Positions 953 to 38,309 of a stretch of DNA of 64,000 nucleotides are shown here, in pieces; position 1 is the first letter of the stretch, and the number at the start of each line of letters is the position of its first letter. This DNA comes from Pontiella desulfatans (GTDB taxonomy: Bacteria; Verrucomicrobiota; Kiritimatiellia; Kiritimatiellales; Pontiellaceae), in NCBI RefSeq assembly GCF_900890425.1, contig NZ_CAAHFG010000002.1:496001-560000 (forward strand), written 5' to 3'. The notes under the pieces are model-generated. The model worked only from the letters and a program-made list of their open reading frames with translations. It searched no databases and was not told where the DNA came from. Both the position numbers and the translations under genes were made by a program.

Positions 953-995
953 AAGGTGGTGGGCTCGGAGGGACTTGAACCCCCGACCAAGAGAT
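953..995 (-). repeat. att-like direct repeat: 3' end of a tRNA-Met gene, left copy
   Basis: Read on the minus strand this is the 3' half of a tRNA: anticodon-stem 3' arm, variable loop, a T-arm with TTCAAGT in the loop, acceptor strand CGAGCCC, discriminator A and an encoded CCA. The same 43 bases recur at 15644-15686. No matching 5' half follows to the right, so this is not a working tRNA gene. Partial tRNA 3' ends of this kind are the usual footprints of tyrosine-recombinase integration. Together the two copies bracket a 14.7-kb island. Confidence 0.85.
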
Positions 996-8825: not shown

Positions 8826-8851
8826 ATTTTTCTCTTTGAGCCTATTTGAGC

Positions 8852-8903: not shown

Positions 8904-8907
8904 CACC

Positions 8908-13507: not shown

Positions 13508-13597
13508 GTCGTGTCCTTCCAAAAATCAAAACAGCCCATATTGAAGCAGGATAGAATATGCCTGTCCTCCAGCAACAACAAGAACAAGCCTGTAAGA

Positions 13598-15481: not shown

Positions 15482-15485
15482 TTTT

Positions 15486-15507
15486 AAGGTGGTGGGCTCG
15501 GAGGGAG
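15486..15507 (-). repeat. Truncated third copy of the tRNA 3' end
   Basis: These 22 bases repeat the first half of the 43-bp att sequence (CCA, discriminator, acceptor strand, part of the T-stem). The sequence then diverges into a GC-rich segment with several small inverted repeats. It suggests an older or failed integration scar next to the intact att copy 137 bp further on. Confidence 0.7.
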
Positions 15508-15613
15508 TTGATGCTACGCACCCTTCGGGCAGCACTACGTGCTGTCTCTCTGCGCTGCGCTCCGAGTGAACCCCGCTTCGGGGGTTCGGCGTCTCCCACT
15601 CACCGCACCACGC

Positions 15614-15640
15614 AAAAAAAGCCAGCCGTTGGCTGACCTT
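15614..15640 (-). terminator. Rho-independent terminator next to the att site
   Basis: GTCAGCC and GGCTGGC-type arms (15621-15637) form a 7-bp hairpin with a CAA loop, followed on the minus strand by TTTTTTT. It lies immediately after the CCA end of the tRNA-derived repeat at 15644. As with the upstream copy, this matches a terminator that once followed a tRNA gene. Confidence 0.7.
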
Positions 15641-15643
15641 TTT

Positions 15644-15686
15644 AAGGTGGTGGGCTCGGAGGGACTTGAACCCCCGACCAAGAGAT
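15644..15686 (-). repeat. att-like direct repeat: 3' part of a tRNA-Met gene, integrase-proximal copy
   Basis: This is identical over 43 bp to 953-995. On the minus strand the tRNA likeness continues rightward to about 15691, where CTCATAA matches the anticodon loop of elongator tRNA-Met (CAT). Beyond that, no 5' tRNA half pairs with it, so the gene is incomplete here. An integrase gene begins about 140 bp downstream, so this is the attachment site of the element to the right as well as the right boundary of the island to the left. An intact tRNA-Met would be expected at the far end of the right-hand element; none is seen in the window. Confidence 0.85.
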
Positions 15687-15827
15687 TATGAGGCTATTTG
15701 TTTTTGGATTATTTCTTAGCTTTATTCGATATTTGGCAATATTTGTTGTGTTTCGGATGTATTTCAGTTGATTTGCCGCACCCTTCTGCTAGCGTTTACG
15801 AACATTAGGAAGCAAAAGGGTACGCCG

Positions 15828-17291
15828 ATGAAAACTACCAAAAAACGAGATTATTCCAAGCGCGGGAATGGCCGACTCTATATTCGCACGAAAGAAGGCA
15901 AAGAGAAAAAGCCAGGCCCTGGCGTTAAAGGAAACTACTATCTTGAATACAACCTCCCTACGGGAGAGGTCAACCCGGATACCGGCAAACCGATCACCAA
16001 GCGTAAAAAAGTTCGGTTGAATCATGCCGACGGCTCGCCGATCACCACCAAAGAGGATGCTGAAAAAGCTCGCGAGCGAATTGTCAGCCAGTATGTGGTC
16101 GGAGAGAAAAAAGAGCGTCTGCAGCGACTGAAAGCCGAGCTTGAGCTCGCTGAGCAGGAAGAGGCTCAGGTTTTTGAGGATCAAAACCCACCGCTGAAGG
16201 TTGCCACAGCATGGGAAACTTATCTTGCCAGCAATGATGCGCCGGAAACGGGAGAGGATACTCTGAAATATTATGCAGGCTACTGGAATAAATTCTCTCA
16301 ATGGATTGGGGGGAAATTCCCGGACGTTATCTTTCTGCGGGACATTTCTCCCGAAATGGCCAATGGCTACGTTTCTGAATTGAATCGACGGAAGATTAGT
16401 CCGAATACATTCAACAAACACATTGGCTTCATGAAGCTCTTCTTTCGTGTATTGGAAGAGCCGGCACGCCTAGAGGGAAATCCATTCGAGAAAGTCAAAA
16501 AGAAGAAACTGAAAACCAACGTTCGACGGGAGCTTAAAATCGAGGAGTTGAAAACCATCCTCGATAATGCCGAGGGACAATTAAAAACCCTGCTTTGTCT
16601 AGGGACCTTCACCGGGTTGCGTCTTGGTGATTGCTGTACCCTGAGATGGACAGAAGTGGATATGGATCGACGGCAGATTCGGCGTATTCCAAATAAGCTG
16701 AGCCACAACGACAATGCCCGCCCTGTGGTTGTCGGGATACCGATCGCTCTTTATCAAAATCTGAGAGAGACGCCCGTTCGAAAAAGAAAGGGTTATATCG
16801 TTCCTGAGTTCGCCGACCTCTACATGTACCGGAATGAAAGCGGACGGCCAACGCGGCAACCAGAGATCACCAAACAAATACAGGCACATTTCATCGATCA
16901 CGGGATTCAAACCCACAGAGAAGGGACGGGCTTCAAGTTGCTGCCTGATCCGAACCGTCCGGGAAAATTTAAGAAAGAACACACGGGGAAACGGGCGGTT
17001 GTTGAAGTCGGATTTCATTCATTGCGTCATACCTTCGTATCTCTTCAGGCGGAGCGAGGAACCCCGCAAAGTACCGTCCAGGCCATTGTCGGACACGGGA
17101 GTCCCGCTATGACCCAGCATTACACCCACATCACAAACGAAGCCGCTCAGCAGGCTGCAAAGGCTTTAGACTCGGGCATCATCGATGCTGAATATGAAAT
17201 TATAAAAAAAGTGCCAAGTTGGATACGGGATAAGCTTGTACAGATGACTGCTGATAATTGGGAATCCATACGCGACCAATTGTTAAGCTGA
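15828..17291 (+). CDS. Tyrosine recombinase / integrase
   Basis: This 487-residue phage-type integrase has an N-terminal arm-binding part, a SAM-like core-binding domain (around residues 125-220) and a catalytic domain. The catalytic residues are visible: Arg in TGLRLGDCCTLRW (near residue 263), HSLRH (near 397-401), GHGS, and the nucleophile Tyr in QHYTH (near 430). The ATG at 15828 is preferred over an upstream in-frame start because it opens the conserved basic N-terminus. It catalyses integration and excision at the adjacent tRNA-Met site. It converges with the excisionase-like gene, overlapping by 9 bp. Confidence 0.92.
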   Translation: MKTTKKRDYSKRGNGRLYIRTKEGKEKKPGPGVKGNYYLEYNLPTGEVNPDTGKPITKRKKVRLNHADGSPITTKEDAEKARERIVSQYVVGEKKERLQRLKAELELAEQEEAQVFEDQNPPLKVATAWETYLASNDAPETGEDTLKYYAGYWNKFSQWIGGKFPDVIFLRDISPEMANGYVSELNRRKISPNTFNKHIGFMKLFFRVLEEPARLEGNPFEKVKKKKLKTNVRRELKIEELKTILDNAEGQLKTLLCLGTFTGLRLGDCCTLRWTEVDMDRRQIRRIPNKLSHNDNARPVVVGIPIALYQNLRETPVRKRKGYIVPEFADLYMYRNESGRPTRQPEITKQIQAHFIDHGIQTHREGTGFKLLPDPNRPGKFKKEHTGKRAVVEVGFHSLRHTFVSLQAERGTPQSTVQAIVGHGSPAMTQHYTHITNEAAQQAAKALDSGIIDAEYEIIKKVPSWIRDKLVQMTADNWESIRDQLLS

Positions 17292-17588
17292 GTTCTGCGG
17301 GAGGTCTTTCGTTCCGGCTTGAGCTAGGTGTTCAACCTCATTCAGATTATAGCGCACTTTGCGGGATGAAATGCGGATTGGGTTTAAGAGGCCGGCGTTG
17401 GCGTAGCGCCGAACAGTAACCGGATGGACATCAAGAATTTTTGCTGCTTCCCTGATGGTGCCGGGGCGTGGTTTCTTTTCGATATTCACTGCGGCCAGTT
17501 GCTTTAAGATTTTCTGTGCATCTTCCGGCAAAACAGTTTCATCGGTAGAAAGAACATTTTTTATAAGCTCTATGGTTGTCCTTTTCAT
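17283..17588 (-). CDS. Excisionase-like small DNA-binding protein (MerR/HTH_17 type)
   Basis: This 101-residue protein has a central helix-turn-helix: TIREAAKILDVHPVTVRRYA, followed by GLLNPIRISSRKVRYNLNEV. That is the winged-helix pattern of excisionases and MerR-type regulators. The ATG at 17588 with AAGGAG upstream is preferred over an earlier in-frame start. Its position beside the integrase, in convergent orientation, fits a directionality factor. A plain transcription regulator is the alternative. A GTGTGAC motif (17617-17623) lies ~30 bp upstream of the start. Confidence 0.75.
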   Translation of the reverse strand: MKRTTIELIKNVLSTDETVLPEDAQKILKQLAAVNIEKKPRPGTIREAAKILDVHPVTVRRYANAGLLNPIRISSRKVRYNLNEVEHLAQAGTKDLPQNSA

Positions 17589-17616
17589 GATGCTACTCCT
17601 TGAAAATGCATGCGGC

Positions 17617-17623
17617 GTCACAC
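17617..17623 (-). promoter_or_regulatory. GTGTGAC motif, copy 1
   Basis: GTGTGAC on the minus strand, followed by GC and about ten bases later by the ribosome site of the excisionase-like gene. The same heptamer occurs in four other intergenic stretches of this element (22727, 22969, 27227, 29911). It overlaps the stop codon of the upstream gene. Confidence 0.45.
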
Positions 17624-20102: not shown

Positions 20103-22142
20103 TCAGCTCTCCATGTATTTCCAGAGTCTTTCGATCTCAATCGGCTTTCTCTTCCGTAACCCGGCTTTTGTCACAAGTTTTTCCACGACCCGGCGCTCCG
20201 GTTCTTTCGGAACCAGGCAGAGAATCCGGTCGATAAAGTCGGTGTTGGCAGCTTTTTTGAGGTTTTCAACCACATGCGAAGGGTTGGCGGAGCTGTTGAG
20301 TTCGATCTCAACTGCGACGCATTCTCCGGAAGGCTGTTTGCGGGCAATCAGATCGATATTTTTACCCAAAGCAGTGCCCTCAATATCGACGTGATACCCT
20401 TTACTTTTGAACCAGTTGGCTGTGCATTTCTGATAAAAGCAGTGCAGATAGCTCCCTTTGCCTTTCATCTTTTTGGGAGGCAGGCTGATCATGCGACAGC
20501 CGCTCTCGGTTAACTCATACAAGTCGCGCGGTGCTCCGGACCGACCATGAACTTTATGAATCAGAATCAGACCGTTTGATTGAAGCTCATCAATTTTCTT
20601 TTTCAGTGTCGATGATGGGACTTTTAGCTGTTTAGCGCGTTCTGAGAGTTTAACAAAATGGTGTTCATACATGCTGTTGAGCGTGCGAATTTCAAGCGAA
20701 ACCGTTTCGGGTTCCGGTGTTGGCTTCGGTGAAACAGGTTGTTTGGGACCTTCCGCAGGTACGGGTGGTGCGAATGTTGCCATCCGGAAGAAAGAATCCT
20801 GAATTCTCTGATTTAACTCATCCGGAGTCAGCCTGGGCGATAGAGCCGGGTTGTCCATATTACATTCCACAATATGCGGCCATCGGTTGTCGGCAATAAA
20901 TGCCTTTCCAATGACTGGATGACGGATTACGTAGTCACGCAGATCGGGGGTGCAGCTGCGAAGTCGGAGAAATTCATCCGTATCGCGTGAGCGGCCGAAT
21001 CCGCCCACCATCATGCGGGTGTTGGTATTGGCTAACAGGCTGTGGCTTAAATCGGTGGACAGCTGACTGGCGGCAATCAGGCCAATCCCGTATCCGCGCG
21101 CTGTGCGTACGACATCAGAAATAAATGAAGGATGACCTTTTAGCTCATCCTGTCTTCGAAACAACGATGATGCCTCATCAATTACAATCAGATTTTTGAG
21201 TCCACCTTGCAGTCCGGCAGTAACTTTCCGGTGTAGAAACATCTGGGCCATAAGCAGGCTGATTAAAAAGTTCTGGATTCCGATATGAGGCACATCGTGG
21301 AGAAGAATCAGGCAGTGATCGTTGAGCAGTTCACTGATTCCAATGTGCCGGGAGGTGTTAAACATGCCAGGCAGACTGTGAAGCAGATTGGTCAGGCGGT
21401 TGATGACGGTTTGCTGCTGCTGGCCGTTTTTTGACATGGGTGAGTATTTGGTAGCCTTAATAAAGGAGAGCAGGTCGTTGAGGTTCGGGTATGTTCCCTC
21501 CTTCTTTCGGATATCAATCAACCTCAGCGCGTGATCCATCAAGAAGCCCGAACTGGCTTCCAGGATATCCAGGTAATTAATCATGCATTCAGTAAAAACT
21601 CCGATCCAGACCTCGGTTTTAATTCCTTCAGGAGGAAGCAGAGGATTAAACGAGAGATGATTTACATCCAGCACGTTGAATTCAGGATACTTCGCGAGCA
21701 ACTCTGTAAACTCCTGCTTGCGTTCCAGAATCATAATCCGGGGAGCATCGGCCACCTGAAGGATCTGCAGCAGCAGATTTTTAATCACCGTTGTCTTGCC
21801 GCCGCCGGTCTGTCCCATCACCAGCAGATGCCGAATCAGACTTATAATATCGATTCCATACATGAATCCGTGATGAGGCATTACGCCCAGCCGGATTGCA
21901 CCGCCCAGATATACCTCATCGCGGGGTGCGGTTTTGCGGAACGGATCCGGATCAAGCCGCTGCAGTTTGATTTCTTCAAGCAGAGTTTCCCGTAGGTCAC
22001 GGATAACGGTTTGATCCCGGGGATCTTCCTCGACCCATTTCATGAGGAGTTTGATGCGGGGTACGGTATCGAGTCCATGTCGGCGAATCGTATGGAACAG
22101 GTGGCGGTAATCCCCGTTCGGGGAGGGAGATGAACGTTTCAT
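20103..22142 (-). CDS. HerA/VirD4-like ATPase with winged helix and PD-(D/E)XK-like nuclease domain (copy 1)
   Basis: This ~679-residue protein has an N-terminal helical region, then a HerA/FtsK-superfamily motor with Walker A GQTGGGKTT (near residues 110-118) and Walker B LIVIDEASSL. A proline-rich linker leads to a winged helix (HFVKLSERAKQLKVPSSTLK). The C-terminal nuclease-like domain has D and E-I-E in NIDLIARK...CVAVEIEL. Such motors pump or unwind DNA; the nuclease may act at the end of a translocated strand. The ATG at 22142 (CGAGGAAC upstream) is chosen; a TTG lies 11 codons earlier. Its 5' end overlaps the zinc-finger gene by 146 bp in another frame. A paralogue lies at 36288. Confidence 0.8.
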   Translation of the reverse strand: MKRSSPSPNGDYRHLFHTIRRHGLDTVPRIKLLMKWVEEDPRDQTVIRDLRETLLEEIKLQRLDPDPFRKTAPRDEVYLGGAIRLGVMPHHGFMYGIDIISLIRHLLVMGQTGGGKTTVIKNLLLQILQVADAPRIMILERKQEFTELLAKYPEFNVLDVNHLSFNPLLPPEGIKTEVWIGVFTECMINYLDILEASSGFLMDHALRLIDIRKKEGTYPNLNDLLSFIKATKYSPMSKNGQQQQTVINRLTNLLHSLPGMFNTSRHIGISELLNDHCLILLHDVPHIGIQNFLISLLMAQMFLHRKVTAGLQGGLKNLIVIDEASSLFRRQDELKGHPSFISDVVRTARGYGIGLIAASQLSTDLSHSLLANTNTRMMVGGFGRSRDTDEFLRLRSCTPDLRDYVIRHPVIGKAFIADNRWPHIVECNMDNPALSPRLTPDELNQRIQDSFFRMATFAPPVPAEGPKQPVSPKPTPEPETVSLEIRTLNSMYEHHFVKLSERAKQLKVPSSTLKKKIDELQSNGLILIHKVHGRSGAPRDLYELTESGCRMISLPPKKMKGKGSYLHCFYQKCTANWFKSKGYHVDIEGTALGKNIDLIARKQPSGECVAVEIELNSSANPSHVVENLKKAANTDFIDRILCLVPKEPERRVVEKLVTKAGLRKRKPIEIERLWKYMES

Positions 22143-22698
22143 GCGGTTCCTCGCTTTTTTGTGAAGGTTCTTCAATGATCAGGGGTTTTAGAAAAAGGCC
22201 CAGCAAACACCCGATAGCTTTCAGTGGCTTGCGGCGATCCATTTTCTTTTTGCACTTTTTGCAGACAAACCCTTTTCCATCGACGTGCTTTAATTCGAAC
22301 GGTGCGACGAGATGTCGGCACACGCAGTCTTCATTTCGGGTGTCATTGCGCATGCGTCGGTATTCCCGTTCGCAGGTCTTGCAGACGGGCTTTCCTGAGA
22401 TGTAAGAGGTAAACGCAATATCTTCGGTTTTACTCACGTTATGGCCGCATCCGGAAACATGCACATTGTTTTTAAACGTACGCCTGAACTTTCGACCGGT
22501 TGAGTCGGTATACACCTGTACGCCGCGACTGAACCGGGTTGCCGGCTGTCCGATCACTTCGGCATGGTTGATTTCGTCAATGATGCCGGTTGCCCCCGGC
22601 GGAAGCTCGGGCAACTCAAACGGAAGCTCCGGCTCGTCCGATTCCTCTCTGCGATCAATGATGTCTGCCAGCCAGCGAAAAAACGTTGCCCATTCCAT
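21997..22698 (-). CDS. Zinc-finger protein overlapping the HerA gene (233 aa)
   Basis: The ATG at 22698 follows AGGAGG. After an acidic N-terminal third the protein has a cysteine-rich region: GCGHN, KPVCKTCEREYRR, EDCVCRHL and GFVCKKCKKKMDRR. That gives at least two CxxC knuckles plus further Cys/His, which suggests one or two treble-clef or ribbon zinc sites. The proline-rich C-terminus lies over the start of the HerA gene in a different frame. Function unknown; position suggests an accessory to the HerA motor. A GTGTGAC motif lies ~30 bp upstream of the start. Confidence 0.65.
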   Translation of the reverse strand: MEWATFFRWLADIIDRREESDEPELPFELPELPPGATGIIDEINHAEVIGQPATRFSRGVQVYTDSTGRKFRRTFKNNVHVSGCGHNVSKTEDIAFTSYISGKPVCKTCEREYRRMRNDTRNEDCVCRHLVAPFELKHVDGKGFVCKKCKKKMDRRKPLKAIGCLLGLFLKPLIIEEPSQKSEEPHETFISLPERGLPPPVPYDSPTWTRYRTPHQTPHEMGRGRSPGSNRYP

Positions 22699-22726
22699 AA
22701 AAACACCTCCTGAACAAACAGGAGGC

Positions 22727-22733
22727 GTCACAC
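22727..22733 (-). promoter_or_regulatory. GTGTGAC motif, copy 2
   Basis: GTGTGAC on the minus strand followed by GCC, 29 bp before the ATG of the zinc-finger/HerA operon. Its flanks (TAATGTGTGACGCC) resemble copies 1, 3 and 4. Confidence 0.45.
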
Positions 22734-24643: not shown

Positions 24644-26141
24644 TGTTTTTTCCTTCGGTGTTGATGGTTGTTTTGTTGCGATCACTCAATGTGCCGATGG
24701 CGTTACGGAGGTCGCCGGTACCGCCGCAGTCCGGACAGGATGGATACCCGGTTTCGAGACATTCCTGCTGCTGCGGAAGCCACACCGGCTCGCCGAAAAA
24801 CAGGCGTGTTTTGTCGGCACCTTCAAAAACGCGGTCAAAAACCTTCAGCCCCATGGTATCTGAAAAATCCGGATCCAGCCGCAACTGGATCAGGTTGCGG
24901 TTACCAATCTGTTTCAGCGTATTGCCCCAGCGGGGGTGATCTGATCCATGATGAATCATCGCCAGCGCAAGGAAGCCTTTAACGGCATTGAGTTGTGCGG
25001 TGGCAAAGATCGGTGTTCCGTGCGATGTCACATCGTTCTCATTGTGTTCTTCGAGAAAATACCGGTAGCGGGAACTCAGAATACAGCGGTGACAGGCCGG
25101 GGTGACGCCGGGATAGGTGAATGTAATCTCCGCCCCGCGTCCTTCCTTGTAGACCTGAGCGCAGAGGCTGGGAATGCCGTAGTTCAGCGCAATCTCATTG
25201 ATGCGAGCCTGTGCAAAAAAGTTGTCGGTCAGGCCGCAGAGTATCGTTTGGCTGTTTCCTGCAATCAGTTTTTCAATTTGATCGGCTTCCAGATCTTCCA
25301 GTTTTTTTTGGAGGGGGATGACATACGCTTGAGGGTTGATATCGCGAATGCGTTCAGCAATACAGTCCACCTTGGGCCGTCCGATATCTTTGCGATACAC
25401 TTGTTGGGTTGCCAGATTGGTTTCTGAAACAAAGTCAGGGTCAATCAGTACAAACTGGCTGATTCCGGCTCGTGCAAGCTGTTCGAGCCACTCGGCAGCA
25501 CCGCCGGCGCCGGCCGCGATGATCCGGGTGTTGTACATTCGACTCAGATCATAGGCATCTTTGACCCGATCAAAGGTTTTTGTCTCAACGGGCTCCTTTT
25601 TACCGAGCGTAATGCGATCGAGCGGCACATCGGGCTGCAACGTTTCAAGCGGTCCGGTTTTCTTTTCCGAGGAAATAATTTCAACCTGCCCGCGTCTTAT
25701 AACAACACCTTCCTCGGTTTTGCAGGCGAACCATGGAGTAAGAATAAATTCTCTAGTATCGGCTACGGTGTTGATGATCGGAAGCCACAGATGGTCCAGA
25801 TCGTCAATGGCGTTCAGAATTTTTTCCGCATAGAACCGGTCTCCAGCAGACGGCATACATCCTTTTCCGGGATGACTGTGTGCAAAACCGACCAGACGGA
25901 TTCCGGCAGGATTCCATTCCTCCTTAAGAAGGGTATTCAAGGCCATGTGATCCGGAGAATAGGTCACGGCTGATGTGCTGCTGCTTTTGTCGAAGTGATA
26001 ATGGGTCACTGTGCCGTCTTTTCCTCCGAGCATCCCGCCCGATTCTGCCTTTTGGATTCCGATGCTGGCAAAGATGGATTGGAGTACCTTCTGCGTCATG
26101 CGCAGAATGAGACGGGGATCTTTATTTTCATAAGCGTTCAT
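24618..26141 (-). CDS. JAMM (JAB/MPN+) isopeptidase fused to an E1/ThiF-like adenylating domain
   Basis: This 507-residue protein has an N-terminal JAB domain with all metal-site residues: Glu33, His88-x-His90, Ser98 and Asp101 (HSHPGKGCMPSAGD). The C-terminal ThiF/E1-like domain has AGAGGAAEW (from 210), the acidic DPDFVSETNL pair, and two CxxC pairs (350-353, 469-472) for structural zinc. The usual Arg after NLxx is replaced (NLATQQ). E1/JAMM pairs process ubiquitin-like proteins. The start ATG at 26141 follows AAGGAA; a longer upstream reading overlaps the preceding gene and is rejected. It is followed by the AAA+ gene. Confidence 0.88.
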   Translation of the reverse strand: MNAYENKDPRLILRMTQKVLQSIFASIGIQKAESGGMLGGKDGTVTHYHFDKSSSTSAVTYSPDHMALNTLLKEEWNPAGIRLVGFAHSHPGKGCMPSAGDRFYAEKILNAIDDLDHLWLPIINTVADTREFILTPWFACKTEEGVVIRRGQVEIISSEKKTGPLETLQPDVPLDRITLGKKEPVETKTFDRVKDAYDLSRMYNTRIIAAGAGGAAEWLEQLARAGISQFVLIDPDFVSETNLATQQVYRKDIGRPKVDCIAERIRDINPQAYVIPLQKKLEDLEADQIEKLIAGNSQTILCGLTDNFFAQARINEIALNYGIPSLCAQVYKEGRGAEITFTYPGVTPACHRCILSSRYRYFLEEHNENDVTSHGTPIFATAQLNAVKGFLALAMIHHGSDHPRWGNTLKQIGNRNLIQLRLDPDFSDTMGLKVFDRVFEGADKTRLFFGEPVWLPQQQECLETGYPSCPDCGGTGDLRNAIGTLSDRNKTTINTEGKNNETVSESE

Positions 26142-26154
26142 AGGGGTTCCTTTC

Positions 26155-26430
26155 TTAAAATTTTTGTCCAGTTCGGATATATTTTTGGGTGTTGTCAGCC
26201 CACAGTGCGGCGACTTTTTTTGCTTCTTCAAGCGACTTAAGCGGATGGTTCCAGCAGACATATTTTCGGTTGCCGTCTGAGCGGCGGTGAGTCGAATGGG
26301 CGTCGGTGGCTCGGTTGTTATAGGATGGTTGCCACTCAATATATGCACGCCACTCACGGCCCTTTTGTTCAAAACTGAAAAAGTAATCCGTTGATCTGTC
26401 TTTGGTTCGGTATTTCAAACGATAAGCCAT
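26155..26430 (-). CDS. 91-residue protein upstream of JAMM-E1, possible E2-like fold
   Basis: ATG at 26430 follows GGAGAAC. The protein ends 13 bp before the JAMM-E1 gene, so they are almost certainly co-transcribed. Visible features are YFFSFEQKGREWRAYIEWQP, then His45/His48, a D-G turn and a single cysteine in KYVCWNHP (Cys59), and a C-terminal helix with LWADNTQKYI. His...DG...C followed by P is reminiscent of the short prokaryotic E2-like proteins that accompany E1/JAMM genes. The protein is small for an E2, so this is a hypothesis; otherwise unknown. Confidence 0.7.
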   Translation of the reverse strand: MAYRLKYRTKDRSTDYFFSFEQKGREWRAYIEWQPSYNNRATDAHSTHRRSDGNRKYVCWNHPLKSLEEAKKVAALWADNTQKYIRTGQKF

Positions 26431-27337: not shown

Positions 27338-28051
27338 ATGACAGAAGCAATACAGAGAGATATGCGATCAAGGACGGAGCCGCTGATTCACGCGGTCCGA
27401 GCGCATGAACAGGGTGCGAAAAGCTGGAGTTTTTCTGGCATCGCGGCGCGGATGAACCGTTTGTACGACCAACTCAACAACGATTTTTTTAGGGGCAAAT
27501 TGCCGAAGGCACTGATTTCTATCGGGCCGGATCTGATCATGCGTTACGGATACTACCATGTCGGCCGGGACGGAATCGGCGCGAAGCACAGGATTCACCT
27601 GAACTCGCGGCATTTTGGGCGGAGCGAGTCCGATGTGGGGGTGACGCTGCTGCATGAAATGATTCATGTATACCAGCACCTGTTCGGGAACGTGGGTCAC
27701 CGACATCGATACCACAACCGGGAGTTCGCGGATATTGCCGGAACACTGGGGTTTGAAGCGCAGGTCGGTACCGGGGTGACGAAACAGGTGAGCGGATGGT
27801 TGCGAACCAAACTCGATCAGCTGGGATTTTCCGCGTTTGAGAAAATGATTCCCGATCAGCAGGCAGAACCGATCCGAAAGCCGCTTCGAAAAGTGATGTG
27901 GAAATGCATCTGCGGGCAGGAGGTTTGGGCCGAGCGGGGGTATGCGCTGGAGGCCGTTTGCAAAGTGTGTCATGGTGCGTTTGAGCGACCGGATGAACTG
28001 ACCGAGCCGGACGAGGAAATAGATCTTGCCGTAGCTCAGGCTGCCGCCTGA
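27338..28051 (+). CDS. SprT-like zinc metalloprotease
   Basis: This 237-residue protein has a SprT/Spartan-type domain: DQLNNDFFRGKLPKA, then the HExxH zinc site in LLHEMIHVYQHLFG, and the third ligand region NREFADIAGTLGF. A C-terminal zinc ribbon is formed by CICG and CKVC. Spartan-type proteases cut DNA-bound proteins, including DNA-protein crosslinks; the bacterial SprT family is less well defined. The ATG at 27338 has GAGGTG upstream inside the conserved leader. In this element it may clear protein from DNA during replication or transfer. Confidence 0.88.
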   Translation: MTEAIQRDMRSRTEPLIHAVRAHEQGAKSWSFSGIAARMNRLYDQLNNDFFRGKLPKALISIGPDLIMRYGYYHVGRDGIGAKHRIHLNSRHFGRSESDVGVTLLHEMIHVYQHLFGNVGHRHRYHNREFADIAGTLGFEAQVGTGVTKQVSGWLRTKLDQLGFSAFEKMIPDQQAEPIRKPLRKVMWKCICGQEVWAERGYALEAVCKVCHGAFERPDELTEPDEEIDLAVAQAAA

Positions 28052-29958: not shown

Positions 29959-30636
29959 ATGAAAAAAGTTATTATGTCTGTACTGCTGGGGATTGGCTGG
30001 GGCCTGGTCATTTACTTGGTTCAAAATCCCCCGACAACCCGGGTTTACATTTATTATCCCGAAGTGGATTTTGGTGAAACATATACAGTTAACTTGGGGG
30101 ATGGTGTTTCATTGGTCTTTCGTAAACATACTAATCAGTATGATCGAGTTGCCTGGGTTTCAGAGTGTAAAGTTACCATAGAGCAAGTTGAGCAATATGA
30201 GCAGAACTCGCTTGAATACATGTATTACCAAGAAAGTGAAGACTGCGGGACGAATGACACCGCCACCATGGTTTATAAAAATGAAGCACGTAAGCTGTGT
30301 GATTGGCTGACTCAGCGGGAAACGCTGAAGAACCGCCTGCCAAATGGATATTATTATTCCGTCGTTCCGATGGAAAATTACCACGATTATGTTGTTCGTG
30401 GTGATGATATTCAGATGCTGAATGGTTTTTACGTGAAGTTGAGTAATAAACAGCACGAAGTGGTTTCATCGCCCCTCCTTGATAAACTTGTAAAGGACGG
30501 GGCCGGGGTCGCACATCGTATCGAGGACCATCTGGGTCTCTGCATCTTTTTGCTTATAGCGGGCATCATTATTATGGGCTTGGTTCTCTTTTGTTGGAAC
30601 GTTTGTCGACACAAAGATATTACCGACGAAACTTAA
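29959..30636 (+). CDS. Membrane-anchored protein with an FGE-sulfatase-like fragment (225 aa)
   Basis: ATG at 29959 follows AAGGAGG. The N-terminus has a transmembrane span (VIMSVLLGIGWGLVIYLV) and the C-terminus a second (LCIFLLIAGIIIMGLVLFCW). Between them lies a ~130-residue domain resembling the front of formylglycine-generating-enzyme/SUMF1 folds: ECKVTIEQVEQYEQ, then NEARKLCDWLTQRETLKNRLPNGY. The distal catalytic cysteines are not present, so it is unlikely to be an active FGE and may be a binding module. It converges with the next gene, overlapping by 17 bp. Confidence 0.65.
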   Translation: MKKVIMSVLLGIGWGLVIYLVQNPPTTRVYIYYPEVDFGETYTVNLGDGVSLVFRKHTNQYDRVAWVSECKVTIEQVEQYEQNSLEYMYYQESEDCGTNDTATMVYKNEARKLCDWLTQRETLKNRLPNGYYYSVVPMENYHDYVVRGDDIQMLNGFYVKLSNKQHEVVSSPLLDKLVKDGAGVAHRIEDHLGLCIFLLIAGIIIMGLVLFCWNVCRHKDITDET

Positions 30637-31771
30637 ACTCCTTCTGCTGGATTTTCTTTTCGTCCTTCAACTTATATTGCGTCAACGCTTTCAGCTTTTG
30701 TTCGGCTTTTTTGATCTGTTTGAGGTCGTGCTTCAGTTGCGACTCCATCCGCAGAGCAGTTTCGGTTGCAGCAAGCGATTGGTCCTTTTGTTTAGCCATC
30801 GCGTGCGTGGCAATCACATCAATCTGCCGCCGCAGTTCCTGATGCCGGGTCTCGGCACTTTTGAGCATCTGCTCAATCGCATGTTCTTCGAGGATTTTCT
30901 TTCGTTCGAGCAGGATCTGTTGCTGGAGTTTTTTCCGATCCTCATCACCCAGCTCTTTGCAATATTCCCGCAGTTGCTGAAGCTCTGACCAGTCAAAGTT
31001 TCGGAGCCGTCGATCCATGATCCGGACTCGATCCAGCGTTTGGATGACATAGTCGGTCTGGTGTGAAATTTCCACCGTGGCTTGTGACACAGCTTTATAA
31101 TCCGGCATTGGGTGATTCAACTCTGTTTTGATGCCCAGCAGCGTCTTCGTGACCTTGCGGTCTTGCTTCTGCGCAACAGGGATTTCCCTGCCTTGAATCT
31201 TATTCACCTGCTTGAGTTCGCTCTTTTCACGTTTCTGGTTGAGTCGGGCGACGAACCCGGCGTCGCTGCCATCCTCCGGCTTGGCATGCGGCCAAAGGCG
31301 CATGAAGAACTTCCAGGCACAGATTAGGAACGCTATCGCCGCGATCAGCACCAATGCCGGCGCATCCCGCAGTACCTGCGGCAGGATGCCTGCCGCGAGC
31401 AGGTAAATGATGAGGTAGGCGCAAAGCGCGGCGGTATCCCACTTCATACCCAGCTGATGCAGGAGGTGAAAGAGCAGCAGGCCGAACAGGATCAACATGA
31501 TGATGGCTGTGAGGCCTCCGGCCATTCGCAGGTTCCAACCAAACTGAGCCTCGGAAATCGCTAACGCTGTTCCGAGAGAAATGCCCAGTGCTGTCGCCAG
31601 GGCCTTGCCCGGTCGCCCCCGGAACCGGGTTCCAAAGATTGCCTGGCACAAAGCAATAAATATAGTGCAGTAGATAATGAGGTCAAACAGAGCGTAGTAT
31701 TTGTCATAGGTCGCAGCCAGGTTCCAGTTGGCAAACGGAGCCAGCGCATCTGCAAAAGGGTCAACACTCAT
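30620..31771 (-). CDS. Polytopic membrane protein with long coiled-coil tail (383 aa)
   Basis: The first ~160 residues contain about five hydrophobic spans (LIIYCTIFIALCQAIF, GLTAIIMLILFGLLLFHLL, ALCAYLIIYLLAAGIL, ALVLIAAIAFLICAW). The remaining ~220 residues are charged and helical, with coiled-coil heptads and many Gln/Lys/Glu. It starts with an ATG overlapping the Cdc6 stop by 4 bp, so it is translated with the initiator. A membrane-tethered partner for replication or transfer is possible; no family recognised. Confidence 0.75.
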   Translation of the reverse strand: MSVDPFADALAPFANWNLAATYDKYYALFDLIIYCTIFIALCQAIFGTRFRGRPGKALATALGISLGTALAISEAQFGWNLRMAGGLTAIIMLILFGLLLFHLLHQLGMKWDTAALCAYLIIYLLAAGILPQVLRDAPALVLIAAIAFLICAWKFFMRLWPHAKPEDGSDAGFVARLNQKREKSELKQVNKIQGREIPVAQKQDRKVTKTLLGIKTELNHPMPDYKAVSQATVEISHQTDYVIQTLDRVRIMDRRLRNFDWSELQQLREYCKELGDEDRKKLQQQILLERKKILEEHAIEQMLKSAETRHQELRRQIDVIATHAMAKQKDQSLAATETALRMESQLKHDLKQIKKAEQKLKALTQYKLKDEKKIQQKEFKFRR

Positions 31772-33018
31772 GCAAGCATCACCTCATCTAAGTCAAAGCT
31801 GTTGAGGATGGATCGCTTCATCGCCCGCAGGATTTCCGGAGGAGCGGAGAGATAGATCTCCTTGGTTCGGCCATACCGGCCGCGCGAAACCGTTCGCGCC
31901 CGGATGAAGCCATACATATCGAGCTCGCTGAGCAGATCGGTAAACGCCCGCTGCGTCAGTGGCGGCAGGCCGGCTGTGTGGCAAAAGTTTTCATAAACGA
32001 TGTAGGCATCGCCGGTGTGCAGTGCCCGGCCCCGCGCCTTGCCGGTCAGTGCGGCATACAGTGCCGCCTGCAACTGCTTGGGACAGGTTCGGATCATGGC
32101 AAGGTATTTGTCCTTCTCAATCTCGCCGTAGGCTTCGTCCACGCAGTCTAGCGTGATCTTCTCGCCCTTCTTTTCCGCGAGCTGCGCGGAGCGCGTCAAA
32201 AGGTCTACGGCTTTCCGGGCGTCGCCGTGGGTTCGCGATGCATACGCCGCGATCTTTGGCACGACACCTTCGTCAACCATGCCCGGTCGCAACGCCTTTT
32301 CGACCCGGATGTTGAGAATGTGCTGAAGGTCATTCGCGTTATAGGGATCAAAGATCAGTTCCCGCATTTTCAGGCAGCTTTTGATTCGCGGATCAAGGTT
32401 TTCTGTCCAGCTCAGACGGTTGGACGAAAACAGCAGGATCAGCTTCGCTTCAATTTTCTGTGGAAGGCGTTTGATCAAGAATTTGTAGAACGAATCCGGA
32501 TCGGTCCGGACGTTATCGGCCTCGTCGATAAATACGACGATATATCCTTTTGCTTTTCTCAGCTTCGTTTCGATGGAGCGCATCAGGTCATCAAGGCTGA
32601 TGCCTCTCTTGTAGTATTTGCTCGCGCCCATCAAACAACCGAGGTTGTTGAGTGCACGAAAGCAAGGAGCGGCGCAGCACAAGTCGAGGTGATATTGCCG
32701 AAATGAAATGCTTTGCTCTTTGCAGAGCTGGGCAATTTCGTGAAGCAGATACAGCAGAGTAATGGTTTTGCCTGTGCCGGTTTTCCCCAGCACCGACAAA
32801 TGAACCGGATGCCCGCCCTGAAAGACCGGGGCGAAGTGGCGGGTGATTTCACCAATCTCTCGGTTCCGGACGTTGGCATTAAATATTTCTGTCAGGACGT
32901 CAAACTGTCCCTCCCGCGAGAGCTGTTCGTCATCGAGATATTGTGGAGATTGAACAATCGCGTTTTTGAACGCTTCATACAGTTGTTCCCTGATGTGGGA
33001 TTGAATTTTGGTTTGCAT
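31768..33018 (-). CDS. cdc6: Archaeal-type Orc1/Cdc6 replication initiator
   Basis: This 416-residue protein has the Orc1/Cdc6 layout. An AAA+ core shows Walker A GKTGTGKT (78-85), Walker B VFIDEAD (161-167) and sensor 1 SSNR (197-200). Next come DPRIKSCLK (208-216) and FDPYNANDLQHIL, the family phrase IAAYASRTHGDARKAVDLL with the sensor-2 arginine, and a C-terminal winged helix from about residue 330 (GFIRARTVSRGRYGRTKEIYL). Archaeal homologues bind ORB repeats and load MCM. Length is normal for the family. ORB-like inverted repeats lie just upstream of its start. Bacterial initiation normally uses DnaA, so this gene is likely to be foreign. Confidence 0.88.
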   Translation of the reverse strand: MQTKIQSHIREQLYEAFKNAIVQSPQYLDDEQLSREGQFDVLTEIFNANVRNREIGEITRHFAPVFQGGHPVHLSVLGKTGTGKTITLLYLLHEIAQLCKEQSISFRQYHLDLCCAAPCFRALNNLGCLMGASKYYKRGISLDDLMRSIETKLRKAKGYIVVFIDEADNVRTDPDSFYKFLIKRLPQKIEAKLILLFSSNRLSWTENLDPRIKSCLKMRELIFDPYNANDLQHILNIRVEKALRPGMVDEGVVPKIAAYASRTHGDARKAVDLLTRSAQLAEKKGEKITLDCVDEAYGEIEKDKYLAMIRTCPKQLQAALYAALTGKARGRALHTGDAYIVYENFCHTAGLPPLTQRAFTDLLSELDMYGFIRARTVSRGRYGRTKEIYLSAPPEILRAMKRSILNSFDLDEVMLA

Positions 33019-33030: not shown

Positions 33031-33169
33031 TTCCAGAGGAAAGGAGGTGAGCTGATCTATTTAAACTTTTCCGACCCCTGGGAGGTGGTGACACGGTTTT
33101 TTCCAAGGGTTGGAATCAAGTTTTCCAATGTCTGGAAAATGAACAGGCTTGCTCCGTTGGAGCCTGTTC
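33031..33169. other. Candidate replication origin: ORB-like inverted repeats beside cdc6
   Basis: Three TTCCA/TGGAA-type elements occur within 110 bp between cdc6 and the divergent gene: TTCCAGAGGAAAGG (33031-33044), TTCCAAGGGTTGGAA (33101-33115, preceded by TTTT) and TTTTCCAATGTCTGGAAAA (33121-33139). They recall the core of archaeal ORB/mini-ORB sites (TTCCA-n-GGAAA). A short AT-rich stretch (33057-33070) lies between the first two. A 9-bp inverted repeat, GAACAGGCT/AGCCTGTTC, follows at 33141-33169. Confidence 0.5.
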
Positions 33170-33528: not shown

Positions 33529-33860
33529 CATCGGGAAGAGATGCTGGTGAGATGCAAGTCGATGGCAATGAAGCTGTAGAAGTCTACCGCGAATTGTCAC
33601 CGGCGAAGCAGATTGCCGGCTGCTCTTTTCGAGAGTGGGAGTAAATTTCCGGTGCGGCCTATATATATACCTATCTCTATCTAAAAGAAGTAAGTAGTAA
33701 GTACTGTAGAGAGGTGACGCTTATAAAGCAGCGTCGGCTGCCGCCCTGCCGCTGTGGTTATCAGTTAGCGGTTAATGGTTGCGGGTCGTTTTGAATGAAT
33801 GGCCATGAGAAAAGCATCCTTGATGCTCCAGTGGAAACTCACTCTCGCCGATCATCGCGA
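33529..33860. other. Intergenic region with TATA-rich stretch
   Basis: No gene is supported here. The stretch holds an alternating TATATATA run (33660-33668), a purine-rich AAGAAGTAAGTAGTAAG tract (33694-33710), GGTGACGCTTATAAAG (33714-33729), and several short inverted repeats. It could contain promoters for the small genes to the right or part of an origin region. The hairpin leader of the next gene begins at 33861. Confidence 0.4.
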
Positions 33861-33922: not shown

Positions 33923-34177
33923 ATGAGTGAGAACAAACCGATTAAGAAATTTGGAGCAGGCGCAATCTCAGCGTCTGTCTGGAAGAATGAATTGAAGGAT
34001 GGAACCGAAATCAATGCGGTGACTATCGAACGTCGATATCAGAACAAAGACGGCGAATGGCAGAGCACAACCAACCTGAGGGTGAATGATCTTCCACGGG
34101 TTGGGTTGCTGGCTCAGAAAGCATACGAATTTCTGGTATGCGCGAAACACGACGATGTCAAGGCGGCGGAAGAATGA
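33923..34177 (+). CDS. Small conserved protein of the 'KFGAGAISASVW' type (84 aa)
   Basis: The sequence opens MSENKPIKKFGAGAISASVW, followed by VTIERRYQNKDGEWQST and LRVNDLPRVGLLAQKAYEFL. From memory, short proteins with this wording are widespread in archaea, their mobile elements and candidate-phylum bacteria, but have no assigned role. The compact beta-strand-helix pattern without cysteines suggests a small single-domain binding protein. It is coupled by a 4-bp overlap to the next gene and preceded by leader copy 2. Confidence 0.75.
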   Translation: MSENKPIKKFGAGAISASVWKNELKDGTEINAVTIERRYQNKDGEWQSTTNLRVNDLPRVGLLAQKAYEFLVCAKHDDVKAAEE

Positions 34178-34517: not shown

Positions 34518-34694
34518 ATGAATCAGACAGGTGAAGAAGTAACTTTCGAATGGTTCATAACCGACCTCACGACATCGGCGGGTATCTCTTTTACGGGGGT
34601 AAAAGATACCCGCAAAGACGGGCGTCGAAGAGGTATAAATAATGAACCAAACGAAAGTGAATCAAATCATCAGCTACATCAAAGTGCAGGATGA
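34518..34694 (+). CDS. Possible 58-residue overlapping gene
   Basis: A frame from ATG 34518 runs for 58 codons (opening MNQTGEEVTFEWFITDLTTS) and overlaps the first 53 bp of the gene at 34642 in another frame. Its second half is encoded by the leader hairpin, which makes chance coding more likely. The opening MNQT recurs at the start of the next gene, hinting at a local duplication. Ribosome site is weak (AGAGGCAG). Confidence 0.25.
   Translation: MNQTGEEVTFEWFITDLTTSAGISFTGVKDTRKDGRRRGINNEPNESESNHQLHQSAG
34578..34641 (+). ncRNA. Hairpin 5' leader, copy 3
   Basis: GCGGGTATC (34578-34586) pairs with GATACCCGC (34605-34613), and after a 2-nt bulge TTTTAC pairs with GTAAAA around a GGGG loop. 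This 15-bp hairpin is the strongest in the element. The tail AAAGACGGGCGTCGAAGAGG then reaches an AT-rich spacer and the ATG at 34642. The tail matches that of copy 1 (AGAAGACGGG...GAGG...AATAA-ATG). Confidence 0.55.
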
Positions 34695-34983
34695 ATTTCC
34701 GTTTGATGTTTTCGATGTGGAAGATCAGGAGTCCGTACTTGGATACTTTGGCTTCCACCCCAGACTGGATGATGAAGAACGGAAAATAATACAGGCCGAG
34801 CTGATGAAAATGGCGGAAGCAGCGCAGACCGCAGAAATGGCTCGAATCATGTGTGCTGAGCCGGTGCCGCAGAGATTGTACCGAAGAAAATACTGCACAA
34901 GAATGGAGCAGTCAGTCAGTGCAAAAGAATGGTTGAAAACGCTGCCCGAAGAACTTCGGGGCAGTCTGGCCAGCCAGGTTTAG
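34642..34983 (+). CDS. Unknown helical protein (113 aa)
   Basis: The ATG has AAGAGG about 9 nt upstream within leader copy 3. The protein begins MNQTKVNQIISYIKVQDEFP and is helical and charged (DDEERKIIQAELMKMAEAAQ), with a basic middle (VPQRLYRRKYCTRM). No domain recognised. It is the last small gene before the 750-bp non-coding stretch. Confidence 0.6.
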   Translation: MNQTKVNQIISYIKVQDEFPFDVFDVEDQESVLGYFGFHPRLDDEERKIIQAELMKMAEAAQTAEMARIMCAEPVPQRLYRRKYCTRMEQSVSAKEWLKTLPEELRGSLASQV

Positions 34984-35705: not shown

Positions 35706-35740
35706 GTCCGGATGATTTCTGTCTACTGGTGAGTAGTAAA

Positions 35741-36298
35741 ATGACAGGAAACTATAACTGGTATTTCCCGGGGTATGCTCCGGAGAAACCCAATCAAAAA
35801 GATGCGTATCAGTATCACGTTGAACCCGGCCGACCGGCCTTCGAAATCATCCGGGATATCCCGCCTCCGAAACAGCCGTTCGGGAAACCGGACGGGCTGG
35901 CCGAGAAGATTTTCAATAGTCATAATGCCAGCCAGATTGAGCCACTGGATTTTGGTGCGGACCGGATGCTGTTGCATGGCGATCACATCGACTGCCTGAT
36001 GAAACAGTTGCAAGCACGCCATACGATCTCATACAGCATTTTGAATGATGTTCAGTTTCAGGAAACCCGGATTCAAGCCGCGCTTCATGATCTGGACGGC
36101 TTGCCGGTGATGGCCGGACGATGTTCCAAAACAGGAATCGATTTGGAGAAGCAATTAGCACGATGTGGCCAGGAGCGAAGAGCGGAAGAAGTTGCCTGCT
36201 GGCGGGACACCAACCGGTTGCTGGGTAGTATCTTTGATTCATGGACCGGTTACGCCGATGAACGACGGAAAAAGAGGCTGATGGACGATGACCTTTGA
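35741..36298 (+). CDS. Unknown protein coupled to the second HerA gene (185 aa)
   Basis: The start is ATG 35741 (GGTGAG 7 nt upstream) or the in-frame GTG at 35729, 27 nt from a TATA-like box. The protein begins MTGNYNWYFPGYAPEKPNQK, has a proline-rich front half and a helical back half (ETRIQAALHDLDGLPVMAGR, CGQERRAEEVACWRDTNRLL). No known motif. Its end overlaps the HerA gene by 11 bp, so the two form an operon and probably one machine. Confidence 0.7.
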   Translation: MTGNYNWYFPGYAPEKPNQKDAYQYHVEPGRPAFEIIRDIPPPKQPFGKPDGLAEKIFNSHNASQIEPLDFGADRMLLHGDHIDCLMKQLQARHTISYSILNDVQFQETRIQAALHDLDGLPVMAGRCSKTGIDLEKQLARCGQERRAEEVACWRDTNRLLGSIFDSWTGYADERRKKRLMDDDL

Positions 36299-38309
36299 GG
36301 AGTCGATCAAAAAGATTGCTGTCCATATCGGCCAGATTAAGGCGCTGAAATTATGGCGGCAGTATCAGCTATCGGACGGCATTGGAAAGCGTGAGCTGGA
36401 GTCGCTGATCGAGCTGCAGCTCCAGCAGAAATATGGAGAAGATCCGCTTCGTGATGAGAACGGATTGCAGGTTCCCCCTGAACAGGATGCTGCCGGGCCA
36501 TATGAGCTTGGCAACGTTCTTTCCTATGATCGGATCATGCATCCTTTTGGAATTCGGGAGGATGAGTTCATCCAGCACATGGCCATCTTCGGGCGGAGCG
36601 GTGCCGGGAAAACCAACACGGTTGCATTGCTCATTAAAGAGTTGGTGCGGCACAAAAAACCGTTCCTGATTTTCGACTGGAAACGGAACTACCGGGATCT
36701 GCTGGCGCACGGTGTTCCACTGGAAGTTTACACCGTCGGGAGACCCGCTCATCCACTCCACTTCAACCCGCTGATCCCGCCACCGGGAACCGACATGAAA
36801 GTGTGGCTGAAAAAGCTGATTGAGATCATCTCACATGCCTACTTTCTGGGAGAAGGGGTTATGTTCATTCTTCTGGAAGCCATCGACGCAGTCTATTCAA
36901 AATTCGGGTGCTATACGAATGAGCCGGAACGCTATCCGACCCTGCAGGATGTTCTTGAATTTTTGGAGAAGATGCCGGTGAAAGGCCGGAAGGCCATGTG
37001 GCTGGATTCCACCATGCGGGCGGTACAGAGTTTATGTTTCGGACAGATCTCCGATGTGATCAACACCAATTCCCAAACCGGTATCCAGGAACTGTTGGAT
37101 AAAAATATTTGCCTGGAACTCAACTCGCTGGCGCAAAACGAAAAAACCTTTCTGATCGAAACCATCATGGTCTGGATCCATCACTGCCGGATGCTCGAAC
37201 CCGACCGGGAAACCTTTAAGCACTGCATCATTATCGAAGAGGCGCACAACATTCTCAGCAACGCAGCCAAAGAAACCGTCATTGATCTGCTAATGCGAGA
37301 AATCCGGGAGCTGGGGGAATCCATTGTATTGGTCGATCAGCATCCCAGTCAGATCTCCGTGCCGGCGCTGGGAAACACCTACTGCACCATCGCGCTGAAT
37401 ATGAAGCACAGCAAAGATATCAACTCGCTGGCTGAGATGATGCGAATCCCCAAAGAGAATCGCGAGACGCTTGGGCTTTTACCAATCGGCCATGCCGTCG
37501 TAAAACTCCAGTCGAGATTTATCCATCCCTTTGAAATTCAGATTCCAAAAGTTGATCTCAACAAAGGATCAGTTACCGACACAACCCTCTCACAAATCTA
37601 TGTGCCCCATTCCACTGATTCCGCACCGGAACCGGATGACACTGCCGGTTCCGATCAAACAGAGGTTGTTCCTGAAAACCATAGAATAGAGAAACATTCT
37701 ACTGGAACAGGCCTTTCTGAAACCGAAGAGATCCTGCTCAAAGATATTCATAAACATCCGTTTGATGGAGTGGTAAAACGGTACTCAAGAATGGGCATCA
37801 GCCGACGGCGGGGAAACCACGCCAAACAAAACCTGACCGAAAAAGGCATCATCCACTCGGTTGATATCCCAACCCGAACAGGAAAAGTCGTACTGCTGGA
37901 TCTTACACCAATCATGCGCGAAGCCATGAAACGCAACGGAATTGACGTACCCAAGCGCAAAGAAGGCGGCCTTGTCCACAACTACTGGAAAAACGAAATC
38001 CGCAAGCAGCTTGAAAAAGACGGATGGGCCGTCGAACTCGAAAAACCCATGGGCAATAATATGGCGATCGACCTCTATGCAGAAAAAGACGGCAAACGCA
38101 TCGCCGTCGAAGTCGAAACCGGCACCCGCGGTGCGGAAAACATCAAAAAGCTCATCCCTCTAAACCTCGACCACATCATCAGCTTCAGCACGACCCATGA
38201 AGTGAAGCTAAAAACACTTCGAGACTTTGGCGCAGGGACGATTCATGTGAACAATCTTAATGTTATGGATCCCAGTTCATGGGATCGGCTGGATGAATAT
38301 TTCAAATAG
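36288..38309 (+). CDS. HerA/VirD4-like ATPase with winged helix and PD-(D/E)XK-like nuclease domain (copy 2)
   Basis: This 673-residue paralogue of the protein at 20103 has a helical N-terminus, a motor with Walker A GRSGAGKT (102-109) and Walker B CIIIEEAHNIL, and a HerA-like glutamine/arginine region (VDQHPSQISVPAL). A winged helix follows (GVVKRYSRMGISRRRGNHAK). The C-terminal nuclease-like domain has D and E-V-E in AIDLYAEKDGKRIAVEVETG. Both copies have E-x-E where PD-(D/E)XK enzymes usually have E-x-K, so catalysis is uncertain. The two genes lie near opposite ends of the recognisable element, on opposite strands. The role may be DNA transfer, segregation or end processing. Confidence 0.8.
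   Translation: MTFEESIKKIAVHIGQIKALKLWRQYQLSDGIGKRELESLIELQLQQKYGEDPLRDENGLQVPPEQDAAGPYELGNVLSYDRIMHPFGIREDEFIQHMAIFGRSGAGKTNTVALLIKELVRHKKPFLIFDWKRNYRDLLAHGVPLEVYTVGRPAHPLHFNPLIPPPGTDMKVWLKKLIEIISHAYFLGEGVMFILLEAIDAVYSKFGCYTNEPERYPTLQDVLEFLEKMPVKGRKAMWLDSTMRAVQSLCFGQISDVINTNSQTGIQELLDKNICLELNSLAQNEKTFLIETIMVWIHHCRMLEPDRETFKHCIIIEEAHNILSNAAKETVIDLLMREIRELGESIVLVDQHPSQISVPALGNTYCTIALNMKHSKDINSLAEMMRIPKENRETLGLLPIGHAVVKLQSRFIHPFEIQIPKVDLNKGSVTDTTLSQIYVPHSTDSAPEPDDTAGSDQTEVVPENHRIEKHSTGTGLSETEEILLKDIHKHPFDGVVKRYSRMGISRRRGNHAKQNLTEKGIIHSVDIPTRTGKVVLLDLTPIMREAMKRNGIDVPKRKEGGLVHNYWKNEIRKQLEKDGWAVELEKPMGNNMAIDLYAEKDGKRIAVEVETGTRGAENIKKLIPLNLDHIISFSTTHEVKLKTLRDFGAGTIHVNNLNVMDPSSWDRLDEYFK

Follow-up and report, generated by a model that had tools for sequence, protein, structure and literature searches.

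Archaea and eukaryotes start replication with Orc1/Cdc6, bacteria with DnaA; the two are treated as domain-specific initiators and load unrelated helicases, the one normally loaded by Orc1/Cdc6 being MCM. A gene for an apparent Orc1/Cdc6 protein nevertheless lies in a 64,000-nucleotide stretch of the Pontiella desulfatans genome (contig NZ_CAAHFG010000002.1, positions 496,001 to 560,000), here called the window, which raises the question of what such a protein does in a bacterium. The reading argued for here, to which we give a probability of roughly three in four, is that this Cdc6 would initiate the replication of a family of integrative elements found in bacteria, using the machinery of the host.

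The Cdc6 protein

On profile evidence, the open reading frame at 31768..33018 (minus strand; 416 aa) is a full-length Orc1/Cdc6 protein with an AAA+ core, a lid and a C-terminal winged helix. It matches the NCBIfam model TIGR02928 (orc1/cdc6 family replication initiation protein) at 250.8 bits (E 1.8e-74; cut-off 181.3 bits) and covers profile positions 19 to 365 of 366, along with the Pfam domains Cdc6_C (1e-23) and Cdc6_lid (3.5e-18), each above its cut-off and in canonical spacing. The motifs GKTGTGKT, FIDEAD, SSNR, DPRIKS and GDARKA are all present, as is a winged-helix wing with the sequence RGRYGRTKEI. Residues G78, G81, G83, K84, T85, D165, E166, S199, N200, D266 and R268 are invariant in 12 bacterial homologues, a comparison that takes in a divergent second bacterial lineage. 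Searched with a seven-sequence profile, the nearest solved structures are Cdc6-1 of S. solfataricus (2qby_A, 3.1e-69) and ORC1 of A. pernix (2v1u_A, 4.9e-61); an AlphaFold model from seven sequences was poor (pLDDT 62), and the same two archaeal structures were its top Foldseek matches. The original prediction had described a complete Orc1/Cdc6 motif set in a protein of normal length, and had considered placement among the IstB, TniB or ExeA-type ATPases as the contrary outcome. None of these families is among the Pfam and NCBIfam matches of the window Cdc6, and the profiles, the structure matches and the tree described below all give Orc1/Cdc6, so the assignment holds. The dN/dS ratio of cdc6 is approximately 0.04 between copies A (that of the window) and B of the host and 0.03 between copy C and its relative in isolate B12227, which indicates a protein maintained by purifying selection.

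A bacterial host without MCM

The source genome comprises 8.66 Mb in six contigs, and its four cdc6 copies lie on two contigs of megabase size. It encodes a normal DnaA (237.8 bits) and is congeneric with B12227, an isolate of the Pontiellaceae, a family within the Kiritimatiellota, and itself a cdc6 carrier. An archaeal-bacterial chimeric contig, an artefact considered when the gene was first noticed, is ruled out by the four copies within megabase contigs, by DnaA, and by independent relatives in B12227 and several MAGs; the genome is bacterial.

The usual partner of Orc1/Cdc6 is missing from these hosts. A scan for MCM (PF00493, 1e-15) returned zero matches in nine cdc6-bearing bacterial genomes, and the same scan was positive in five archaeal genomes (four archaeal controls and Haloarcula). 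Weak MCM-profile matches in the host were dismissed because bacterial controls, E. coli among them, reach the same level. Without MCM, the archaeal step that follows origin binding cannot proceed in the usual way, and the elements therefore probably begin replication in a hybrid manner.

Distribution and descent

The four host copies of Cdc6 share 100, 92, 77 and 63% identity with the window protein. Relatives at 76, 72 and 59% occur in B12227, a Lentisphaerae MAG and a deltaproteobacterial MAG, respectively; a Kiritimatiellae MAG has two, at 62 and 54%, and G778, a genome of the same phylum as the deltaproteobacterial MAG, also has two, at 41%. The family is thinly spread among the genomes searched: of the 346 genomes in the host's class, 8 had a cdc6 match (a second lineage and one short fragment being counted among them), and of the 297 in the phylum of the deltaproteobacterial MAG, 2 did. 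That second, more divergent bacterial lineage is represented by G372, G348, G139 and G289, and the member tested, the G372 protein, exceeds the cut-offs of both Cdc6_lid and Cdc6_C.

In an unrooted tree of 56 rows, eleven bacterial sequences form one clade (100/100) on a long branch away from archaeal Orc1. Within it copy D pairs with the Kiritimatiellae MAG and copy C with B12227, groupings which imply that the host acquired its elements separately. Of the two origins that had been put forward, an archaeal replicon that crossed into this lineage or a bacterial family of Cdc6-driven elements, the second is supported by the four host copies, B12227, the several MAGs and the single clade; ultimately the gene probably came from archaea by an ancient transfer, the tree being unrooted as to direction. 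A viral origin was rejected, as the IMG/VR contigs held no relatives of Cdc6 or HerA1 (a neighbouring gene product described below) and phage records none of Cdc6, in a non-exhaustive scan with degenerate patterns.

The region upstream of cdc6

The region upstream of cdc6 resembles an archaeal-style origin, in which inverted ORB-like boxes would surround an AT-rich unwinding region. Box 1, CCGCACCGGAAATTTACTCCCACTC (33633..33657, minus strand), is the top match in the window, at 24.7 bits, to a matrix that was built from the deltaproteobacterial, Lentisphaerae and G778 sites only and scanned over all 64 kb. Box 2, CTCCAGTGGAAACTCACTCTCGCCG (33826..33850, plus strand), is inverted with respect to box 1 and ranks fourth at 16.3 bits; ranks two and three fall inside HerA1 and inside a host gene. 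The peaks of 60 simulated windows averaged 14.0 bits with a maximum of 17.7, and box 2 alone is not significant by score; its candidacy draws on position, inverted orientation and conservation. It also matches 11 of the 12 letters of the archaeal ORB core, TTCCASTGGAAA. Between the boxes, nearest-neighbour energies predict a duplex unwinding element (DUE) at 33658..33720 (TATATATATA...), and the 45-bp window at 33660 is within the most unstable 0.01% of the 64 kb. This AT-rich sequence is part of what the original prediction had taken for BRE/TATA-like boxes, and its identity is corrected to that of the stretch between two origin boxes. The same ORB-DUE-ORB layout has been described for Sulfolobus oriC1 (PMC12141716) and for haloarchaea (PMC3528665).

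Sixteen boxes from eight elements yield the consensus YTCCASYGGAAATYTACTCNCACYG, in which positions C4, A5, G9, A10, A16, C17, C19, C21 and C23 never vary. Archaeal Orc1 loci scanned with TTCCASTGGAAA contain many sites followed by G-strings of the AAGGGGTGGG type, whereas all sixteen boxes of the bacterial clade have ACTCNCACYG in place of the G-string after the core. The G-string flank is common in archaea and not universal. Upstream of cdc6, the box pair is missing in the Kiritimatiellae MAG contig and in G606:C47, and in the second bacterial Cdc6 lineage the upstream region yielded none of these boxes.

Conservation of the protein runs parallel to that of the boxes. The winged-helix recognition region is its best-conserved part, with 51% identity to archaeal Orc1, and the ISM region, the limits of which we take from general knowledge of solved structures, is the least conserved at 15.5%, compared with 58.6% within the archaeal set. 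Contacts to the ORB dyad are made by the winged helix in archaeal complexes, and those to the G-track by the ISM (PMC9738581). An initiator and an origin that function as a pair would be expected to show this pattern, a kept core with a kept reader and an altered flank with an altered reader.

Boxes of this kind could also be operators. Some archaeal Orc1 proteins are transcription regulators and not initiators (PMC9738581), and a protein derived from an archaeal Orc1 might, like Saccharolobus Orc1-2, regulate cdc6 and the operon of the divergent gene p84 from these sites. The boxes do lie between divergent genes, and a further core-like site, TTCCAGAGGAAA (33031..33042), with one mismatch to TTCCASTGGAAA, abuts the cdc6 start codon, as do similar sites in copies B, D and others; autoregulation of cdc6 through this site is possible. 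Non-initiator Orc1 proteins, however, lose the winged-helix arginines that contact the ORB (PMC9738581), whereas Q356-R357 and R381 are invariant across the bacterial clade and the window Cdc6 also has R379, by a residue mapping that is our own. Inverted boxes with an easily melted middle also fit the layout of an origin, and a parA gene follows cdc6 in one element. We consider a purely regulatory role improbable.

Conserved neighbours of cdc6

Several genes recur beside cdc6. Overlapping its stop by 4 nt, p383 (30620..31771, minus strand) encodes a protein with four to five transmembrane helices predicted from hydropathy and a charged C-terminal region, and a homologue directly follows cdc6 in copies B, C, E and D and the Kiritimatiellae MAG (42-80%) and in the Lentisphaerae MAG (30%). 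On the other side, beside the putative origin, p84 (33923..34177, plus strand) encodes a small protein with a predicted beta4-alpha fold (AF2 pLDDT 83.8). Its best structural matches were to PUR-alpha (Z 4.5, weak, and no confident fold match), and it is possibly a single-stranded DNA-binding protein. An initial impression that p84 is of a mainly archaeal kind is not supported: its relatives are mostly found in these bacterial elements (copies B, C, D and E and the Lentisphaerae MAG, and weakly K139 and G778) and in a few bacterial plasmids. Next come p113 (34642..34983, plus strand; 113 aa), with homologues at 46-85% in copies B, C, D and E, and p189 (35729..36298, plus strand; 189 aa), with homologues (28-81%) at the corresponding position in copies B, C, D and E and the Lentisphaerae MAG. 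Immediately downstream of p189 lies the gene of HerA1 (36288..38309, plus strand), a HerA/FtsK-type DNA translocase by its profile matches (DUF87, 5.2e-15; CedD-like, 88 bits). The set of p383, p84, p113, p189 and HerA1 recurs with cdc6 in the host and B12227, and most of it also in the Lentisphaerae MAG.

Farther from cdc6, a second HerA/CedB-like ATPase, HerA2 (20103..22175, minus strand; DUF87; CedB, 46 bits), and a conserved partner reading frame (21997..22731, minus strand) have homologues in copies B, C and E, as does an SprT-like protein (27338..28051, plus strand; PF10263, 2.4e-11; 63-89%). Other carriers have other neighbours: in the deltaproteobacterial MAG it is parA (123.9 bits to ParA_partition) that lies directly after cdc6, and G778 encodes a Replic_Relax protein near it. 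Defence-type cargo (type I RM, NACHT, caspase) is located near several copies. The C-termini of HerA1 and HerA2 contain short VEVETG/VEIELN stretches that are, by eye only, possibly nuclease-like; no Pfam nuclease was found in the core genes scanned.

The company of HerA recalls a defence role that has been proposed for bacterial "HerA/FtsK plus Orc/CDC6" neighbourhoods, where an Orc/Cdc6-family AAA+ protein is likewise found beside HerA/FtsK in mobile DNA (PMC10853773). In such a system the AAA+ protein would place a nuclease on invading DNA and HerA would act as the pump. HerA1 does adjoin cdc6 in both bacterial Cdc6 lineages (for the second, judged on the full G372, G348 and G139 loci), and the defence-type cargo and the HerA termini would fit as well. 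An inactive REase, inserted between AAA+ core and winged helix, defines such systems; the window Cdc6 nonetheless lacks it, and its lid (233-297) directly adjoins the wHTH (309-397) in the standard Orc1 architecture. PF24389 (ORC-CDC6-like) was not matched at E values up to 1, whereas the canonical Orc1/Cdc6 models were, and the deltaproteobacterial, G778 and Kiritimatiellae MAG loci examined have no HerA1 near cdc6. Nor does a defence model predict ORB boxes of archaeal type, and it appears an unlikely account of this family.

Integration at tRNA genes

A tyrosine integrase (15768..17291, plus strand; PF00589, 6e-18; 44% to the copy D integrase) is followed by a MerR/HTH_17 protein, a candidate excisionase or regulator (17283..17621, minus strand; PF12728, 3.7e-10). 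Beside the integrase is a predicted att site, the 3' half of a tRNA-Met(CAT) gene (15648..15692, minus strand), which is a 36-bp exact direct repeat of the intact gene situated 107 kb away and outside the window (G000:C2:618869-618945). All four host elements combine a tyrosine integrase with a tRNA 3' fragment, of tRNA-Met (A), tRNA-Gly-TCC (B), tRNA-Gly-CCC (C) and tRNA-Tyr (D), and each time the intact tRNA is found in matching orientation on the side of the element, 107, 88.6, 348 and 460 kb away, respectively. The exact repeats measure 36 bp in A, 63 bp in B and 45 bp in C, and 23 bp within a longer imperfect repeat in D. The integrase of the Kiritimatiellae MAG similarly lies beside a tRNA-Tyr 3' fragment. 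A second, outer tRNA-Met 3' fragment in the window (953..995, minus strand), a 43-bp exact repeat of 15644-15686, marks, as its sequence is read here, a tandem neighbouring element of about 953-15648. Short direct repeats between the 15-kb and 38-kb regions were also considered as att sites, and none was above chance; the true partner is the distant tRNA gene.

With att-to-tRNA distances of 89-460 kb, the mobile unit is perhaps much larger than the 23-kb core, or has been rearranged. Homology between copies A and B stops just beyond HerA1 (38341), which implies either a very large unit with host-like cargo or islands that were enlarged later. Neither a circular form nor an extrachromosomal copy was observed, and the ends of the 39.7-kb deltaproteobacterial contig, which is complete, do not overlap as those of a circular contig would. 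Counted against Cdc6 as an initiator are this lack of a circle, the large distances, the box pair missing in two loci, the failure to find helicase, primase or polymerase genes near cdc6, and the existence of regulator-type Orc1 in archaea.

The distances and the lack of a circular contig, along with hosts that have no MCM, would also suit a once-functional archaeal-type replicon that is now only an integrated island, in which Cdc6 is kept and replication is minor or absent. Such decay is difficult to reconcile with the strong purifying selection on Cdc6, the retention of box pairs in eight elements, and the recurrence of the family across bacteria and as separately descended copies within one genome, and we regard it as very improbable.

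A proposed mode of replication

Replication initiation by Cdc6 is favoured by the identity of the protein as Orc1/Cdc6, its single bacterial clade, the boxes and the easily melted stretch between them, and the contrasting conservation of the winged helix and ISM. The parA gene after cdc6, the Replic_Relax protein of G778 and the integrase-tRNA layout point the same way, as do separate acquisition, the absence of MCM and purifying selection. As proposed, Orc1/Cdc6 would bind the inverted pair of ORB-like boxes next to the gene that encodes it, the winged helix reading the TTCCASTGGAAA core and the ISM region the lineage-specific flank, and in its ATP-bound form would melt or prepare the AT-rich stretch between them. 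Since the hosts have no MCM, Cdc6 would then recruit the bacterial helicase machinery, most likely DnaB, which is the simplest guess, or use an element-coded factor. The element would replicate as an excised circle, be kept or moved by ParA or HerA-type DNA pumps, and be inserted by the tyrosine integrase into the 3' end of tRNA genes. We lean, by a small measure, towards such a hybrid system, in which Orc1/Cdc6 on ORBs recruits a non-MCM helicase (DnaB or an element factor) and initiates the replication of bacterial integrative replicons.

Recruitment of another helicase, if true, would constitute a new mode of initiation. A maintained Orc1/Cdc6 with its own boxes in bacteria that lack MCM would show either that the initiator works with another replisome or that it can act without its usual helicase, and the contribution of Orc1 beyond MCM loading becomes a directly testable question. 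The family would also give the Kiritimatiellota, for which genetic tools are scarce, a new type of replicon, and would let the co-evolution of initiator and binding site be studied as a natural experiment.

Relation to known replicons and islands

Each part of this system (Orc1/Cdc6, an ORB origin, a tRNA-integrating element) is known, and it is their combination in bacteria without MCM that is new; no description of Orc1/Cdc6 replicons in bacteria of the Kiritimatiellota group was found in the open-access literature. Archaeal chromosomal Orc1-1/Cdc6-1 and oriC1 (2qby_A, 2v1u_A) have in common with the window the AAA+ motifs, lid, winged helix and ORB core, as well as inverted boxes around an AT-rich stretch and an initiator gene beside the origin. 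Unlike them, the window Cdc6 belongs to an integrative element in a bacterial host without MCM, has ACTCNCACYG for the G-string and a divergent ISM region, and shares about 30% protein identity. The orc1/cdc6 plasmids of haloarchaea and methanogens likewise code for their own initiator, sometimes followed by ParA (e.g., a Haladaptatus halobius plasmid), but their hosts are archaea and protein identity is under 32%.

Among bacterial mobile elements, the closest resemblance is to tRNA-integrating islands and ICEs, in which, too, an integrase neighbours a tRNA 3' fragment and the opposite end carries the intact tRNA. The elements described here differ in that their initiator is Orc1/Cdc6 rather than a bacterial Rep or a relaxase-based one, and no relaxase or type IV secretion genes were seen among the proteins scanned within the 89-460-kb islands. 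Tandem arrays and an ArdC-type protein within the island are further features in common; an ArdC-type protein and a DUF2201 metallopeptidase are encoded in a gene block that is found repeatedly near the elements and that, in copy A, lies near the intact tRNA.

Cargo and neighbouring elements

Among the four cdc6-bearing integrative elements of Pontiella desulfatans, a JAB-E1 (ThiF) fusion protein (24618-26372) beside a ClpB-like AAA+ protein (23264-24685) is cargo seen only in the window's own copy, A. A neighbouring element lies in tandem (953-15648), bounded by two tRNA-Met 3' fragments and containing HsdM/HsdS-like type I restriction-modification genes (10782-13522). The segment at 1047-3377 is probably an insertion sequence; a copy 99.8% identical to it occurs in the same genome (C1, about 3.449 Mb), about 1.8 kb outside the region of homology mapped for element C.

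The att fragment of element B adjoins genes for caspase-like proteins of the Peptidase_C14 type (L054, 12617-15988), one of which carries pentapeptide repeats. The second of these proteins has a 38% relative close to the intact tRNA-Met of island A. In a deltaproteobacterial MAG, the cdc6-parA contig (L123/L124) also has long ORFs of efflux and P-type ATPase size, which may be candidates for metal resistance.

Box-like sites and other bacterial cdc6 loci

HerA1, the HerA/FtsK-type translocase, contains a 25-mer (36715-36739) resembling the inverted ORB-like boxes upstream of cdc6. This sequence, which encodes PLEVYTVG and is kept in all P. desulfatans copies, may reflect protein constraint or a genuine additional site. 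The boxes were not found at the loci of another bacterial Orc1/Cdc6 lineage, of the host's own class (L048-L052), which adjoin HerA1 homologues. The box pair is likewise absent from the cdc6 locus of a Kiritimatiellae MAG, where a 1373-aa NACHT/HEAT protein is encoded immediately upstream of cdc6 (L007, 5581-9699).
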